Part shown: positions 16,038-43,509 of the stretch, in pieces
Layout: the number at the start of each line of letters is the position of its first letter
Position numbering within the stretch: position 1 is the first letter of the stretch
Origin: a virus
Direction: 5' to 3' (one strand)
IMG/VR virus record: IMGVR_UViG_3300037136_000085
Coordinates: 1-45,174 of that record
Length of the DNA stretch: 45,174 nt
Program-made: the position numbers and the translations under genes
Notes under the pieces: model-generated
Database searches by the model: none
What the model was told of the DNA's origin: nothing
What the model saw: only the letters and a program-made list of their open reading frames with translations

Positions 16038-16976
16038 TTATACGCCGGGAGTACCGACGATACCGCGCCAATCGGAATAACCCACCGTGAAGCGGGTCAG
16101 GATACGGCTCAAGGCCACATCCGTTTTAAATTCCATCTGGCTCTTCACTTCGGGCTGCTTGTCCCAGAAGAAGTACAGATCATGCTCGACGTTATCGGTC
16201 ATGAGGAAAAACGCAGTCGGGTCTGTGAGATAATTCCAAACCACTGGATCAATCCGGTAGTTGGACTCTGGTCCAACCGAGGAAAGATTGTTGTTTGGGG
16301 TATCAGGCAGGTAAGCCGAGTGCAGGATTTCCCATGCGATGAACTCAAGAGCAGGCGGAACGACCAATCGTTTTGGTTGCAACATGATGTTGTTACCAGA
16401 CGAATCGACCGTTTGACGCATGAGTGTCAACGTATCCTTGAGAGCGGTTGCCGAAAGATCTTCAGCTACAGCAAGCAAGTTCTTCCCAAGTCCCGAACCA
16501 TCGATGGTTTGAGCACCAGGAGAGAGCAAAGGATGGCTCTGAGAGCAGAGGGGTTGACCATCACTACCGGCAGCAGTGAAGGCGTTGTTGAACACCGAGC
16601 TTGCGACAATTTCGCAAGTCGTGGCAACGGCGCGACCCATCTTCTTAGGGTTCTTGCTCAAAGAATCGTACTTCTCGTGGTCGATCACTTCTTGCGAAGT
16701 GGCCAAGAGAATACCGTATTTCTTGGATTTAAACGTGGTGCTAAATCCTTGATATACGCGGTCCTGTGGAAGCTCTTCACCTTCGCCGACTTGAGCGGCC
16801 GCGGTGAGTGAGCTAACTTGAGCGTGCTGAGCGATACCGTATTTCATGTCTCGGATGTTGAACAACATCTGAGAGATTTTTGGGTACATCTCGTACTCTT
16901 CTTCGATAATATACTCAATCCAGGGCAGAGCCGTATCGAGATATAAGTCTTGTAGGTTCTGTTGTAATAAAGCCAT
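16038..16976 (-). CDS. Major capsid protein (Mu gpT-like, HK97 fold), 312 aa
   Basis: Key features are an N-terminal arm, then VYQGFSTTFKSKKYGILLATSQEVIDHEKYD, the sequence where the HK97 E-loop and spine helix would lie (KKMGRAVATTCEIVASSVFNNAF), QPLCSQSHPLLSPG, and the C-terminal beta region ending DWRGIVGTPG. These match the Mu-like head subunit family. Length 312 is typical. It is flanked by a decoration-like gene upstream and a strong terminator downstream. No protease gene is seen nearby. Confidence 0.85.
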   Translation of the reverse strand: MALLQQNLQDLYLDTALPWIEYIIEEEYEMYPKISQMLFNIRDMKYGIAQHAQVSSLTAAAQVGEGEELPQDRVYQGFSTTFKSKKYGILLATSQEVIDHEKYDSLSKNPKKMGRAVATTCEIVASSVFNNAFTAAGSDGQPLCSQSHPLLSPGAQTIDGSGLGKNLLAVAEDLSATALKDTLTLMRQTVDSSGNNIMLQPKRLVVPPALEFIAWEILHSAYLPDTPNNNLSSVGPESNYRIDPVVWNYLTDPTAFFLMTDNVEHDLYFFWDKQPEVKSQMEFKTDVALSRILTRFTVGYSDWRGIVGTPGV

Positions 16977-23680: not shown

Positions 23681-25855
23681 ATGAAATTTTCAATCGTCAT
23701 CCCGACCTATGGCCGCCTTGACCTTGTTACCGCTTGCGTCAAATCAATCAAAAAATACGAACCCAACACCAAGGAATACGAAATAATTGTCGTAGACGAT
23801 TTCAGTACGGTGGAAAACCGAGAAAATATAAAGAAGCTCGCGACAACTTTGGGTTTCAAATTGGTTGGAACTGACCGAAATGTGGGATTCGCCTCTGCGG
23901 TGAACGCCGGAGCTAGGCACTCTCATGGAACGCACATTATTCTTTGCAACAATGATGTATTATTCACTAATCCGATCTTAGAAAAGTTTAAGCAATCCCA
24001 TTTATGCTCTAAAGCCCCGATCATCGGTTGTACCCTTTTCTACCCAAATGGCGCTATTCAGCATGGTGGTGGTGCTTATCAAAACGGAGTTTTCTTTCAC
24101 ACTAACGATCCAAAATCAACTGCCACAAGTCGCTATTGCATCTACGTTACGTTTGCTCTGGTTTCTATAGAACGATATTTCTATAACTGCATCGGCAATC
24201 TTGACGAAAACTTCTTCATGGCTTGTGATGATTCAGAATATTGCATCCGAGCGTGGTCAAATGATCTTAAAGTATTCTATGATGCATCGATCACGGCCAT
24301 TCATGCTGAAGGTGCAACTCGCGGTAGAACCCATGCCGAAAAGAAGAATAACCGAAAATGCCTAGAAGAAGAGAAGAAATCTATTGCAAGATTAACCACC
24401 AAAATGGGGAATATCGTGAGCTTACTTAGAAAAGTCCAAAGCGCCAACATGGGTAATACGCCTGATATTAAAATAGAAATAGGCTCCGGATACAACCCCC
24501 AACCTGGCTATCAGCATATTGACGCGAGACCTGACCTCCCCAGTTTACACCACTGTTTGGACTTCTCAAAAGACGCTTTGCCATATGGTGATGGAGAAGT
24601 GTGTGAGATCCTATCTAATCACTCCATTGAACACATCTCTTACCGCAAACTTCCTTTCGTATTCCAAGAATGGGCTCGAGTATTAAAGCCGGGTGGGAAG
24701 CTCCTACTTCGGACTCCGGATCTTCGTTTCATTTGTGAAACGTATTTGGCTGGTAAAACAACGCCCGAGTGGCCCGATGACGAAAAATACATTCGAGATA
24801 ATTTTGGAAATGTATCCCCAGCCTGGTGGGCCAATATCAAACTATTTGCGGGCCAGGACTATCCCGGAAACTTTCATCAACTCTGCTTTGATTTTGAAAT
24901 GCTGAAAAGTGCTCTCATAAGATACGGATTTGACAAGATCACTAAACTCGATATCAAGCCGGTTTACTCCCCCGGTGAACTTCAAATAGAAGCTTTCAAA
25001 GCAGTTCCTAGACCCACCATTCGTATAAAACGAATGGGGGCTTTGGGCGATGTGATCCTGACCACTCCACTCATTATTCATTTGAGTGCAATGAACGACA
25101 TCCATGTAACAACCGGATGCCCAGAGGTTTTTAAAAACCACCCTGCGGTAAAAACCATAAACACGAATTTTCCTTGTGATCAGTTTATTGATTTAGATTT
25201 GGCTTATGAAAACGATCCAAAGAAACATATTGTGGACGCCTATGCAAAAGCAGCTCAATGCCCAGAATTCAGGTATATGCCGCCCTGGATTTGGGGGGAT
25301 GAACACCCTTTGCCTGATCTTAAAAACTATGTGGTAGTCCATGCGGCTCGCACTTGGGAGAATAGAACCTGGCCTGCCGAATATTGGGACCAAGTTTCTT
25401 ACCATTTAGGGTCGATGGGGTACGCTGTCATTGCGGTAGGCTCGAATAGCGACATGAAAGTGCGAGATGCCACCAACATTAGGGGCATGACAATCCATCA
25501 GCTAAAAACAATCATCAACGGGGCCAAGGCTTTCATCGGGAGTGATTCTGGGATCTTGCATATTGCAGCCACGACAGAAACACCAATTGTTGGGATATTC
25601 ACCTGCGCAAAGGGGGAATACCGGCTCCCCAAGAGAAGCAACGCCGTTGCGGTCAGGACCAATCTCGAATGCTATGGTTGTCTCCATGACGTTACTCCTC
25701 CAGTGACTTATGTGGGTTGTAAAATCGGAGGTAATCCCTGTGTGAGAGAAATTACCCCCGATGCCGTAATTAGCGTTTTTAACGCCTTACTGACAAGTAA
25801 CGGGGCCGAAGGGAAGAGTCTGATCAACGAGCATACCGACGGCTGTGAACCGTGA
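23681..25855 (+). CDS. Tri-domain GT2-methyltransferase-GT9 fusion, 724 aa
   Basis: Residues 1-230 are a GT2 glycosyltransferase (FSIVIPTYGR, IIVVDDFS, HIILCNNDV, DDSEYCIRAW). Residues about 262-440 are a SAM-dependent methyltransferase-like domain (IEIGSGYNPQPGYQHIDARPD as motif I and II, NHSIEHISY, WARVLKPGGKLLLRTPD). Residues about 446-715 are a GT9 heptosyltransferase-like domain (RIKRMGALGDVILTTPL, VVHAARTWENRTW, FIGSDSGILHIAA). Such genes normally act on lipopolysaccharide or glycoproteins. A lone plus-strand gene between two minus-strand blocks, it probably has its own promoter; none is clear. Its 3' end overlaps a minus-strand gene by 69 bases. Confidence 0.9.
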   Translation: MKFSIVIPTYGRLDLVTACVKSIKKYEPNTKEYEIIVVDDFSTVENRENIKKLATTLGFKLVGTDRNVGFASAVNAGARHSHGTHIILCNNDVLFTNPILEKFKQSHLCSKAPIIGCTLFYPNGAIQHGGGAYQNGVFFHTNDPKSTATSRYCIYVTFALVSIERYFYNCIGNLDENFFMACDDSEYCIRAWSNDLKVFYDASITAIHAEGATRGRTHAEKKNNRKCLEEEKKSIARLTTKMGNIVSLLRKVQSANMGNTPDIKIEIGSGYNPQPGYQHIDARPDLPSLHHCLDFSKDALPYGDGEVCEILSNHSIEHISYRKLPFVFQEWARVLKPGGKLLLRTPDLRFICETYLAGKTTPEWPDDEKYIRDNFGNVSPAWWANIKLFAGQDYPGNFHQLCFDFEMLKSALIRYGFDKITKLDIKPVYSPGELQIEAFKAVPRPTIRIKRMGALGDVILTTPLIIHLSAMNDIHVTTGCPEVFKNHPAVKTINTNFPCDQFIDLDLAYENDPKKHIVDAYAKAAQCPEFRYMPPWIWGDEHPLPDLKNYVVVHAARTWENRTWPAEYWDQVSYHLGSMGYAVIAVGSNSDMKVRDATNIRGMTIHQLKTIINGAKAFIGSDSGILHIAATTETPIVGIFTCAKGEYRLPKRSNAVAVRTNLECYGCLHDVTPPVTYVGCKIGGNPCVREITPDAVISVFNALLTSNGAEGKSLINEHTDGCEP

Positions 25856-33878: not shown

Positions 33879-35237
33879 TCATACTAGATTGATTGATTTT
33901 CTCTTCCGTAAGATTGTTTCCAAGACCGTCCTGTCTATGGAATTCTTAAACACCAAATACGAAACCAAAACGTCTCGGTTCTGACCGATACGGTGAGCGC
34001 GATCCGAAGCCTGTTCGTTATTGCCCGGCACCCAATCGAACTCTACAAACACTACTCGGGCTGATCTTGTCAATGTGAAACCCACGCCCGCAGCTTGAAT
34101 ATTGCCAATGAAAAGTTTTGAACCACCTTCCATCTGAAAACCTTTTACCAAATCGTTTCTCTTGTGAGTCGGAGTTTCTCCGGTGATCACAACCGGGTTG
34201 TATTCCGAAAGAGCCCAACTCAATTTGGCAATTACATCCCGGTGGATGGCAAATACTAAGAGGGCCTCGTTTGAATTTTCTAGAATATCTTTTAAGAACT
34301 CGATTGCGAACTTGCATTTGGCTTTCCCTAGTTCCTTTCGATAGGTAGCGGTATGCGGACTATCCAAAGTATGTTTCATGAGATCTTCCGGCGAATACTC
34401 TTTCAGAATGGATTTATCCAAAGCTCCGACAGCCTTTGGCATCTCATCTGACAAAATAATCATCTCTTCCATTTTATCTGGCAATTCCTCTAGCACATCA
34501 CGTTTACGCATCCTAAGCATGAAGTTGGATTTAACTTTCAAACTTAATTCGCTCACATTACTTGCGCCCGTGAAATCCCAACCCCATTGATTTTGGAAAC
34601 CAGCACAATATCTAAGCCCATACTGAAACCGATTCTTGAAATCTATCGTCTCTGGAGCAGCCACAGATAGAACAGGAAAAAGCTCAATAGGTCGGTTAGG
34701 CATGGGTGTGCCTGACATAAATACGCAGCGAGAAGCGCAAGGAAACAGAATATTGAAAAGAGATTTTGTCCTCTTTGCCGTTTCGTTTTTAAATCGGTGC
34801 GCTTCATCTACGATCAATAATACAGGATCTTTACTTTTTGGTTTAAATTTATCAAGCCTATTATCAGGAATTACGGTGAGCCTATGGAAATATTCTTCAT
34901 TCCACTTAAGCATTTCGCTATAGGTATTCTCAACTAAAAACGGGGGGCAAACGTACCAAACATCAAGATGAGCCAAATTTCTGGCGATTAAGGCCGCAAT
35001 GATTGTTTTCCCAAGTCCTGGATCTAGAGCCAAGTAGGAACGATTGCGCTCGAGTGCGAAGCGAATTGCTTCAAACTGAAATAGTTTCGGATGAAGACCT
35101 TTAGGATACCGAATGGCACCAAGCCAGGGTTCCTTAGTGATTGTAGTCTTGCTTGGTTTAATTCTTGCCGACTTATCAGATTGGTCTTTTAGCTTGGTGC
35201 TCATTCGGAGATCTTCAGGGTACTCGAGAGTTGTCAT
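33879..35237 (-). CDS. SNF2-like (SF2) helicase, 452 aa
   Basis: Motif I DPGLGKT at 72-78, motif II DEAH at 144-147, motif III SGTP at 175-178. The second RecA domain has LLVFAIHRDV, KLFIGNIQAAGVGFTLT (motif V) and QASDRAHRIGQ (motif VI). This is the SNF2/SMARCAL1-like arrangement without accessory domains. Phage members are thought to remodel or unwind DNA in replication or recombination. The start at 35237 follows the Gln-rich frame by 4 bases and lacks a clear ribosome site, so translation may depend on coupling. Confidence 0.9.
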   Translation of the reverse strand: MTTLEYPEDLRMSTKLKDQSDKSARIKPSKTTITKEPWLGAIRYPKGLHPKLFQFEAIRFALERNRSYLALDPGLGKTIIAALIARNLAHLDVWYVCPPFLVENTYSEMLKWNEEYFHRLTVIPDNRLDKFKPKSKDPVLLIVDEAHRFKNETAKRTKSLFNILFPCASRCVFMSGTPMPNRPIELFPVLSVAAPETIDFKNRFQYGLRYCAGFQNQWGWDFTGASNVSELSLKVKSNFMLRMRKRDVLEELPDKMEEMIILSDEMPKAVGALDKSILKEYSPEDLMKHTLDSPHTATYRKELGKAKCKFAIEFLKDILENSNEALLVFAIHRDVIAKLSWALSEYNPVVITGETPTHKRNDLVKGFQMEGGSKLFIGNIQAAGVGFTLTRSARVVFVEFDWVPGNNEQASDRAHRIGQNRDVLVSYLVFKNSIDRTVLETILRKRKSINLV

Positions 35238-35241
35238 TTTG

Positions 35242-35696
35242 TTAAGACTTTAAACTGGCCGCATTGAAAGAAGTAGAATTGCTTTGTCCCAAAGAATTGT
35301 AAAAACCCTGCAAAGCTTGTTGCTGGGCCATTCCTTGTTGGGCCATTCCTTGTTGAGCACATTGTTGTTGTAGCCCTGGGGGATTAATCTGACCCGTTAA
35401 TCCCGCAAAAGAATCGGCTACTATTTGTTGTTGTTGGCGCGCTTGTTCAAAGGCTCGTATTGATTCTTGACGCGATACGAGCCTATCTAAAAAGGGCGAA
35501 CGATAATCTCCACTCGGTCCAAAGTATCAATGTGTTCCTTAGGAATTTCTCGAGCAACCAATATTCCCACTTGCTTTTCGTCTTTGGCAAGCAGTACCGA
35601 AGGCAATTTAATGACTTCAGTTTTTCCAATGACTTTACCGTCTTTGTCTTCTTCAGGGTGCAACAAAACTGCGTATTCAAATAATTTAAGTTTCAT
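35242..35696 (-). CDS. Possible -1 frameshift fusion, 151 aa, Gln-rich C-terminus
   Basis: The 69-aa protein starting at 35696 ends ...VRPF-TAG. The last two sense codons with the base before them read C CCT TTT, a canonical X-XXY-YYZ slippery heptamer directly before the stop. After a -1 slip, the ribosome would read 80 further codons: LDRLVSRQESIRAFEQARQQQQ, IVADSFAGLTGQINPPGLQQQ, and an end with GMAQQ repeats, NSLGQSNSTSF, stop TAA at 35242-35244. That frame has no ATG, GTG or TTG before two late Met codons, so it cannot start by itself over most of its length. No downstream stimulatory structure was established. Confidence 0.5.
35487..35696 (-). CDS. Conserved-type small protein, 69 aa (zero frame)
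   Basis: Begins MKLKLFEYAVLLHPEEDKDG, then VIKLPSVLLAKDEKQVGILVAREIP and ends VEIIVRPF. This pattern of a small protein with an AKDE..A..LVAREIP core and an R-P-F end is common in phages beside helicase or DNA-metabolism genes, function unknown. TTGTAAGAGGAAACGACT precedes the ATG, so AGAGGA is the ribosome site. First gene of the leftward replication block; a probable frameshift site overlaps its stop. Confidence 0.8.
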   Translation of the reverse strand: MKLKLFEYAVLLHPEEDKDGKVIGKTEVIKLPSVLLAKDEKQVGILVAREIPKEHIDTLDRVEIIVRPF

Positions 35697-35791
35697 AGTC
35701 GTTTCCTCTTACAACGAGGGTTACCTTGACTTTTAAATAAATACAAATGAAATGGATAAACCTATTTTAACAACTCTTGGAAGGAGAACCA
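35697..35791. promoter_or_regulatory. Divergent control region between left and right blocks
   Basis: This 95-base AT-rich gap separates the leftward replication operon (first ATG 35696) from the rightward HTH gene (ATG 35792). TTGACT at 35730-35735 could be a -35 element of a rightward promoter; no -10 box at good distance is convincing. Both gene starts have their own ribosome sites (AGAGGA left, AAGGAG right). Likely target of the small HTH protein. Confidence 0.5.
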
Positions 35792-41872: not shown

Positions 41873-42429
41873 ATCGAAAACACTTAACACCATCCGAGTA
41901 TGAGTTACTGAAACAGGCATTGAAACAAGACGATTCAATGCCCGCACGAATACTTGAACTCATTGTCTACACTGGAATGCGGCAATCTGAAGCCTTGGCA
42001 CTAACCCATAATTCCTTAGACGTTCAAGCTCGATGCTTGAAAGTCAAAGCGCTGAAGGATTCGGAGTCCCGTCTAGTCCCCATGAGTCTAGATCTCATTG
42101 AGCGAGTAAAGCCATTATTCAATATACTCCTCGCGCGTAAAGCAAGGGCTGGAGATTTGATATCAAACTCGCTCAATCCCGAGCACCAAGCGCGGGATTT
42201 GAGACGAATTTGGAGCAAGCTTTCAGTGGCAATCTTTGGTGGTTATTATGGCGTAAGTCTTCATGGGCTAAGGCATTCTTGGGCTTTACGGATATTTGAA
42301 GTAACCAAGGGGAATTTGCTATTGACACAAAAACTAATGGGTCATAAGAACATGAATAGTACCGCAAAGTATTTGCAATATTTTTCAACACTCAATTGTC
42401 GAGACGAGGTTTTAAAAGCAAATGAATAA
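41869..42429 (+). CDS. Minimal tyrosine recombinase/integrase, 186 aa
   Basis: It contains the catalytic domain only: Arg38 (YTGMRQSEAL), Lys60 or 63, His132 and Arg135 (HGLRHSW), His159 (LMGHKN) and Tyr168 (STAKYLQY). The N-terminal SAM-like core-binding and arm-binding domains of phage integrases are missing, giving a size nearer to XerC/D-like resolvase cores. It could integrate the phage, resolve replication multimers or rearrange the repeats nearby. No att site was found beside it. The ATG overlaps the preceding stop. Confidence 0.88.
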   Translation: MNRKHLTPSEYELLKQALKQDDSMPARILELIVYTGMRQSEALALTHNSLDVQARCLKVKALKDSESRLVPMSLDLIERVKPLFNILLARKARAGDLISNSLNPEHQARDLRRIWSKLSVAIFGGYYGVSLHGLRHSWALRIFEVTKGNLLLTQKLMGHKNMNSTAKYLQYFSTLNCRDEVLKANE

Positions 42430-43216
42430 ATCTAATATTATGAAATCATATCAACAAACCATTAGTAAAAAGGATTTTGTAGCCGAATTGAAATTGCATC
42501 AAAAGGCCGATGATTTTGTAAAGGGGTCATACTGGAGAACCGATGGTAAAGGTTGCGCGGTTGGATGTAGTATCCAAAGTATTTCAGTTAAAAAGGGATT
42601 GAATTTAAAGCATTCTGACCATTCGGTCTACCCTATACATTTAGGCATTCCAGAATGGTTAGCCGGACTTGAAGACTGTCTTTTTGAAAATCTCCCGCTT
42701 TCCCGATCTAAAAAATGGCCTGTAGAATTTGCCCAAGCTATTCCTATCGGAGTTGATCTAGAGAAAATAAAAGGTCCCTTTATGGTCATAATTCTAGAGA
42801 ACACTTTAAAGAATTTTGATCATAAGGAATATCCTGATGTAAAAAAGGCGGTGAAGGGTTCAATTGCCCTTTGGAAACGTAAGGATATTGGTTCTAAAGC
42901 GTGGTCGGCAGCGGAGTCGGCGGCGTACTCGGCAGCGGAGTCGGCGGCGTACTCGGCGGCGTACTCGGCAGCGGAGTCGGCGGCGTACTCGGCAGCGAGG
43001 TCGGCAGCGGAGTCGGCGGCGTACTCGGCGGCGTACTCGGCAGCGGAGTCGGCAGCGGAGTCGGCAGCGGAGTCGGCGGCGTACTCGGCAGCGGAGTCGG
43101 CGGCGTACTCGGCAGCGGAGTCGGCAGCGGAGTCGGCAGCATGGTCGGCAGCGAGGTCGGCAGCGTGGATATATTTTGCAGATGAACTTTTGAAATTACT
43201 AAAAAAGGCAGTATGA
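42422..43216 (+). CDS. Phage repeat protein with (SAA-X)22 tract, 264 aa
   Basis: The N-terminal 155 residues form a domain I recall as widespread in phage and plasmid hypothetical proteins ([55 protein letters not shown]). Then 22 tetrapeptides Ser-Ala-Ala-X, with X = Glu, Tyr, Arg or Trp, and a short amphipathic end ([12 protein letters not shown]). The repeat is probably a long helix. Function is not established. An alternative Met at 42440 (MKSYQQ) exists. Start and stop overlap neighbours. Encoded directly behind the recombinase. Confidence 0.8.
42905..43168 (+). repeat. 12-bp minisatellite, 22 units encoding SAA-X
   Basis: Two main DNA words: TCGGCGGCGTAC (SAAY) and TCGGCAGCGGAG (SAAE), plus rare TCGGCAGCGAGG (SAAR) and Trp versions (TCGGCAGCATGG and TCGGCAGCGTGG). 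The synonymous GCG or GCA codon before the variable residue is tied to the residue, so whole units and not single bases have been shuffled. Confidence 0.95.
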
Positions 43217-43509
43217 ATAAAAACACTCCTCGCGCCTCAGAGCAAGGGCTGGAGAAAATAAGATTAGAGCGATTGGAAAGGATTGCAATGTTGGCTAGAA
43301 TTTTAATTGAGGAACTCTTTGCTGAAGGAGTAAGCCTTCCCGGCGAAGTTGATACTCTTGATGATGCGCTTAAGGAATTCGAGGACGTTGAGGATGGTAA
43401 ACCAAAACGCTGCCACACTTGCGGTAAAGAGATTAAGACAGTGCGATGGGCTATGGATGGATTTATATTTTGTTCCGGCGCGTGTGCTGAAACGAGGATT
43501 AAGAAATGA
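43213..43509 (+). CDS. Zinc-ribbon hypothetical protein, 98 aa
   Basis: N-terminal helices ([23 protein letters not shown], read as short pieces) are followed by an acidic linker and a C-terminal CHTCGKEI ... CSGACAETR, a treble-clef-like zinc site. Bases 43225-43255 resemble 42126-42155 in the recombinase gene (same ACTCCTCGCGC and AGCAAGGGCTGGAGA blocks). Coupled by ATGA on both sides. Confidence 0.7.

Follow-up and report, generated by a model that had tools for sequence, protein, structure and literature searches.

On the minus strand of a 45-kb IMG/VR virus record (45,174 nucleotides, the whole of which was analyzed and is called the window here), a 69-aa gene ends on a string at which ribosomes could slip, and a long reading frame without an evident start of its own runs on past its stop. 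The question raised by the locus is whether the two frames are fused by a programmed -1 ribosomal frameshift, as the first-pass annotation of the window had proposed, so that one small phage gene gives two products. Three sequence-level criteria were considered: an in-frame heptamer of the X_XXY_YYZ type, a downstream structure at 5-8 nt, and an open, coding-like and conserved -1 frame. Programmed frameshifting was judged very probable, a conclusion drawn from comparison of nucleotide and predicted protein sequences in the absence of protein or reporter data.

The locus in the window

The product of the 0-frame gene is MKLKLFEYAVLLHPEEDKDGKVIGKTEVIKLPSVLLAKDEKQVGILVAREIPKEHIDTLDRVEIIVRPF, and the 3' end of the gene reads ...GTT CGC CCT TTT TAG, in which C CCT TTT lies in the X_XXY_YYZ register, as the annotation had stated. 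The features of the locus were as follows.

35702..35709, minus: Shine-Dalgarno-like AGAGGAAA, about 5 nt 5' of the gene's ATG (35696), assigned from sequence
35487..35696, minus: 0-frame gene encoding the 69-aa N-domain, ending ...VRPF, stop TAG at 35487-35489; supported by homologues and an AF2 model
35507..35511, minus: Shine-Dalgarno-like GGAGA, a possible internal stimulator, 10 nt upstream of the heptamer
35490..35496, minus: slippery heptamer C CCT TTT, putative -1 shift site, from sequence and relatives
35475..35484, minus: hairpin 5' arm AGGCTCGTAT, after a 5-nt spacer from the heptamer
35451..35460, minus: hairpin 3' arm ATACGAGCCT, closing a 14-nt loop
35242..35490, minus: -1-frame extension of 82 codons (LDRLVS...SFNAASLKS), stop at 35242-35244; homologous extensions in relatives are open in the -1 frame
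35251..35271, minus: C-terminal peptide SFNAASL, an instance of the motif that most extensions share close to their ends
33879..35237, minus: SNF2-type helicase, the next gene, given for context and with no part in the shift; its ATG (35237) lies 4 nt past the extension stop

The -1 frame had been described as Gln-rich, open for 80 codons and without an early start, and this description held: 82 codons follow the slip (35490-35245), 19 of them for Gln, and the extension begins LDRLVSRQES and ends QSNSTSFNAASLKS. Twelve open codons of the same frame precede the heptamer, and no ATG, GTG or TTG was found in these or in the first 48 codons of the extension. The helicase start 4 bases past the stop lacks an obvious ribosome-binding site, also as annotated. 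The translational coupling read from that spacing remains possible but would be specific to the window genome, and the genes downstream differ among relatives. The hairpin of 10 perfect base pairs and the GGAGA element were not part of the earlier description.

Within the window alone, the combination of heptamer and open -1 frame was unusual, not unique, and is no proof by itself. A late in-frame slippery heptamer (within the last six codons) was present in 6 of 152 mechanical ORFs, and in 3 of those 6 the -1 frame was open for at least 80 codons.

Elsewhere in the window, a 264-aa gene at 42422-43216 (+) carries an in-frame AAAAAAG two codons 5' of its stop. Its -1 frame stays open for 100 codons and runs into the gene that follows, 43213-43509 (+), which has its own ATG; the pair may represent either overlap coupling or a second frameshift candidate.

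Recurrence of the predicted slip site and its putative stimulators

Relatives were gathered by IMG/VR protein-profile scans, a DNA-pattern scan and tblastn in phage records. The set comprised 55 further distinct relatives, which are environmental contigs; with the window, 56 members in 29 clusters (70% N-domain identity) were compared. Contigs carrying the gene varied in length between a few kb and 735 kb, and a single copy was present in every stretch examined. Codon choice has no bearing on the protein scans, so they did not select for the heptamer, and only one analyzed member (L044) was found solely via the heptamer-containing DNA pattern. Queries with several different members by tblastn against 50,697 phage records returned only one 735-kb genome (LR756501/LR756503, two entries). 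No homologue was found in plasmids or GTDB genome contigs, an absence that carries little weight since short degenerate peptide patterns were used. The ATPase neighbor of the gene in L123 pointed to N4-like phages (e.g. Pollock), in which tblastn found no homologue of the frameshift gene.

An exact X_XXY_YYZ heptamer stood at the end of the N-domain in 50 of the 56 members (CCCTTTT in 35, CCCTTTC in 10, AAATTTT in 5), and the remaining 6 carried a near-slippery variant with an imperfect XXX (TCC, GCC or CTC) followed by TTTT. As 56 distinct members have the same site in the same place, its occurrence is far above chance, and the heptamer criterion is met. The N-domain terminated in RPF, RNF or RSF in every member. 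The 0-frame stop lay 0-2 codons past the heptamer: it was adjacent in most members, and the L119-L127 group, L086/L118 and L060 had 1-2 intervening codons. Its identity was TAG, TAA or TGA. Codon choice at the site was narrow. The Pro codon was CCT in all 50 RPF members, and the Arg codon was CGC in 45 of 50, against a usage of about 13% in the same contigs (p ~1e-34); after clustering, CGC was retained in 24 of 27 (p ~1e-18). In the VRNF branch, Pro is replaced by Asn (AAT) and the Arg codon ends in A, giving a new perfect heptamer, AAATTTT. All of the perfect heptamers of the family fall within the H_HH.U_UU.Y class, members of which are among the most efficient in E. coli (PMC4066793).

Stimulatory structures are usually spaced 5-8 nt from the slip site (PMC4066793). 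The window hairpin (72-nt fold z -2.2) lies within this range, and across members the best perfect helix peaked sharply at offsets +5 to +8. A helix of at least 8 bp starting at +6 was present in 40% of members vs. 3% at other offsets; counted by cluster, a helix at +5 to +7 was found in 34%, against a background of 6.8% (sd 4.1) and 5.5% in shuffles. The arms vary between branches with complementarity kept. In the L066 subgroup, 5 of 11 hairpin pairs had changed on both sides, covariation was 0.533 compared with 0.298 in shuffled alignments (a value reached by 0 of 500) and no more than 0.18 when the arms were slid, and pairing was 97% compared with 43-55% when slid. No helix of at least 6 bp was detected by an 80-nt scan in L128, L051, L044 and L131, and an Rfam search at the shift site gave no match. 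The criterion of a downstream structure is met for structure and position only; an effect on the ribosome is inferred.

Upstream, GGAGA, GGAGG or GAGGT occurred 9-10 nt before the heptamer in about half of the members. A stimulator of this kind is optional in bacteria, and because the element overlaps a conserved Glu codon (E-[IV]), its presence is merely suggestive of a stimulatory role.

The -1-frame extension and how it may be translated

Wherever it could be read to its end, the -1 frame was open for 44-188 codons, with the exception of L060; the extension of L076 is cut off by the contig end. By cluster, 97% had at least 44 open codons, compared with 13% of dinucleotide shuffles, and in the first 37 members the other frames were short (readthrough median 9 codons, +1 median 7). 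Close extension pairs gave dN/dS of approximately 0.3-0.5 (L066/L081 0.34, L071/L081 0.32, L064/L084 0.42). Values near 1 were obtained for some low-identity pairs, and distant, poorly aligned pairs were uninformative. Hypervariable sequence with much Ser, Ala, Thr, Gly and Asn makes up the middles of the extensions. Most members share a peptide at the tail, [ST]x[FY][NTSM]AxxL-like or, more loosely, [ST]x[FY]xAxxL-like. The strict motif was found in 29 of 54 extension tails vs. 5 of 973 control ORF ends, the remainder being mostly near variants, and it was absent from L005 and L083. Downstream genes often begin within about 20 nt of the extension stop, so space appears to be kept for the extension. 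On these comparisons, the criterion of an open, coding-like and conserved -1 frame is met.

The longest extension, of 188 codons, is that of the 735-kb phage (LR756501.1; L005 3201-3764) and carries collagen-like GTSGTSG repeats; the record has no annotation at all. GIGT(S/T)-type strings, which we take to be of a kind found in tail fibres, occur in two other extensions.

The annotation had named as fatal to its proposal any relatives in which the extension frame was disrupted or had its own start, and exceptions of this kind were confined to L060, L086/L118 and L065. In L060 (5190-5450), alone among the relatives, one T is missing (T4), the site reads CCCTTTT AAA TAG and the -1 frame is closed; a homologous tail with SYNMADAM near its end lies in another frame, and a GC-rich stem is retained. 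This may reflect an error of assembly, or else a shift that has been lost or altered (-2/+1). L086/L118 have a single -1-frame ATG 13 codons upstream, and L065 has two -1-frame GTGs, 75 and 86 codons upstream.

Such starts bear on the possibility that the extension is a second gene read without frameshifting, either through a start codon of its own or through termination-reinitiation. ATG, GTG or TTG codons do occur within several extensions, which is what this account needs, but only L065 and L086, among the 37 members tabulated, carry a start in the open -1 stretch that leads up to the heptamer, and the extensions of L063, L064 and L084 lack any start. Conservation of the heptamer would also be without reason, and two separate genes are considered very unlikely. 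A slippery string arising by chance beside a -1 frame that happens to be open, or an indel in the T-run breaking a single frame, could be entertained from the window, in which 3 of 152 ORFs combine a late heptamer and a lengthy open -1 frame, but is already refuted for the family by the comparative data. The heptamer, the adjacent stop, the open -1 frame and the positioned hairpin recur in 29 independent clusters, which for the family rules out an artefact of the T-run; the codon bias, the alternative heptamer AAATTTT, the covariation in the hairpin, and stops that vary in identity and sometimes lie 1-2 codons further on are likewise at odds with it. Transcriptional slippage as the source of the -1 product can scarcely be credited, for although a five-T run is present, the run is T5 or shorter (TTTC in 10 members), far below the runs reported to slip (Tn, n above 8; PMC3711429), and the spacing of the hairpin, like the register of C CCT TTT, suits a ribosome.

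The fusion of the two frames by a programmed -1 ribosomal frameshift, as first proposed, is strongly supported by the heptamer, stop, open -1 frame and hairpin of the relatives. Under this mechanism, most ribosomes would make the compact 69-aa N-domain and terminate at TAG. With the Pro and Phe tRNAs on C CCU UUU, a ribosome would be stalled by the hairpin 5 nt downstream, and pairing with the upstream Shine-Dalgarno-like element may add to the stall. A fraction of ribosomes would re-pair one base back, on CCC UUU, and continue in the -1 frame, adding the 82-residue tail to give a fusion of about 151 aa, ...VRPF-LDRLVSRQES...SFNAASLKS. The slippery site, open -1 frame, positioned hairpin, covariation, coding-like evolution in close pairs and terminal peptide can be read from the sequences themselves; the shift in infected cells, its rate, and production of the fusion protein are inferences from them.

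Possible roles and known systems

The N-domain was predicted by AF2 as a confident, compact b-b-a-a-b fold (pLDDT 93.7). Its last strand ends at the shift site in the model, so the shift would append the tail to a finished domain. The window extension modeled alone gave low confidence and weak helices (pLDDT 61). The L005 row was left out of the alignment used for structure work. Comparison of the N-domain with Pfam, PHROGs, NCBIfam and PDB sequences returned noise only, and no fold stood out by Foldseek against PDB and BFVD or by VIA-align (lowest Foldseek E 0.31; no VIA Z exceeded 6.6, which falls short of the level separating relatives from common arrangements). YkzG, phi29 p6 and ribosomal L20-LX-like small a/b folds showed weak resemblance at these noise-level scores.

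Genomic context was mixed. In the window, the gene is the first of a replication run with helicase, exonuclease, SSB and DNA polymerase. Its neighbors in L066/L071, one on either side, were named from sequence as sliding clamp and clamp loader genes; for the clamp loader there were also PHROG matches. Exonuclease, primase and SSB are also among the neighbors in relatives, and in L122 the gene is near a tail protein. A neighbor analysis across branches found no conserved neighbor.

One reading that is possible, though less likely than not, is an isoform system that belongs to neither tail nor capsid, in a family spread through uncultured tailed phages and without a name in the libraries searched; a near-invariant -1 shift would add a hypervariable tail with a conserved docking peptide, the partner being common to very different phages or hosts. 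With low confidence, and from anatomy only, the N-domain may be a self-contained binding or assembly unit, the flexible arm of the minor form docking a partner through the [ST]x[FY]xAxxL-like peptide, with the virion or its assembly as the likeliest setting.

Another possible, though doubtful, reading of the frameshift is a virion decoration or minor-capsid pair like gene 10A/10B of T7/T3, with the tail exposed on the particle. Those genes likewise shift near the 0-frame end and have a C-terminal extension differing between relatives (PMC5009743). The collagen-like extension, the GIGT(S/T)-type strings, and the Ser/Thr/Asn/Gly-rich, fast-evolving character of the extensions accord with exposure. 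However, the core here is a domain of about 69 aa and not the major head protein, for which a candidate with head-protein matches lies at 16041-16976 of the window; the gene often adjoins replication genes, AF2 gave weak helices in the window tail, and there is neither virion proteomics nor other evidence of presence in the virion. A role as an early host-takeover or replication accessory factor cannot be put higher than a tentative suggestion. The first position in the window phage's replication run, the flanking sliding clamp and clamp loader genes of L066/L071, the exonuclease, primase and SSB neighbors and a weak fold resemblance to the RNA polymerase partner YkzG and to phi29 p6 (Z ~4) would suit such a factor, but the fold scores are at noise level and some relatives adjoin tail genes (L122). 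Context does not decide between the virion and early roles, and both are left at this low standing. A lambda-like tail assembly chaperone (gpG/gpGT), a small protein with a minor -1 extended form whose frameshift is widely conserved despite low sequence similarity (PMC5009743), follows the same logic but is very improbable here, since no tail-chaperone PHROG, Pfam or NCBIfam match was found, the gene lies outside the tail operon and not between the major tail protein and the tape measure (replication run in the window, mixed or unrelated genes elsewhere), the extension is hypervariable with a fixed terminal peptide, and the window virus is podovirus-like in appearance with an internal-virion-protein match. 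By the features tested, the family is not a member of the gpG/gpGT or T7 10A/10B systems.

In its signals, the family resembles E. coli dnaX and other bacterial and phage -1 shifts, which share the X_XXY_YYZ heptamer, a hairpin of about 10 bp (10 bp in dnaX; PMC7282821) placed 5-8 nt downstream and, as in some members here, an upstream Shine-Dalgarno-like element (PMC4066793, PMC7282821). In contrast to dnaX, the minor product is longer and not shorter, the heptamers are CCCUUUU, CCCUUUC or AAAUUUU, and the protein family appears to be new. A search of the open-access literature for CCCUUUU/CCCTTTT phage frameshifts returned the tail assembly genes of phage 9g, with the similar pyrimidine string CCCUUUUUUU (PMC4276943), and nothing on this gene family; in 9g the shift is one of -2, the gene is a G/T tail gene, and the protein is unrelated. 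The inferred mechanism is a known one, the ordinary bacterial -1 frameshift, and its obligatory sequence-level criteria, as far as examined, are satisfied; what appears new is the gene family and how nearly universally it uses frameshifting. Few phage gene families are known to rely on conserved programmed frameshifting, namely tail chaperones and certain capsid and tail proteins, and the present family would be a further one.

Automatic annotation would miss the gene, ending at the 69-aa ORF and leaving an apparent gap of about 250 bases, and the regular signal of heptamer, spacer and hairpin can locate divergent members. The 56 natural cassettes, with varied hairpins and three perfect heptamers, constitute a test set for slippage by bacterial ribosomes, and the conserved terminal peptide would make the partner directly searchable by pull-down.

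Two further observations were made on gene content. The upstream flanks of L066, L067, L072, L075 and L081 encode GroEL-like and, in some, GroES-like chaperonins together with sliding clamp and clamp loader genes. In the window, a gene at 23681-25855 (+), located on the opposite strand with the terminase on one side and the replication genes on the other, encodes a 724-aa protein with a GtrB-like glycosyltransferase match and a methyltransferase-like region.
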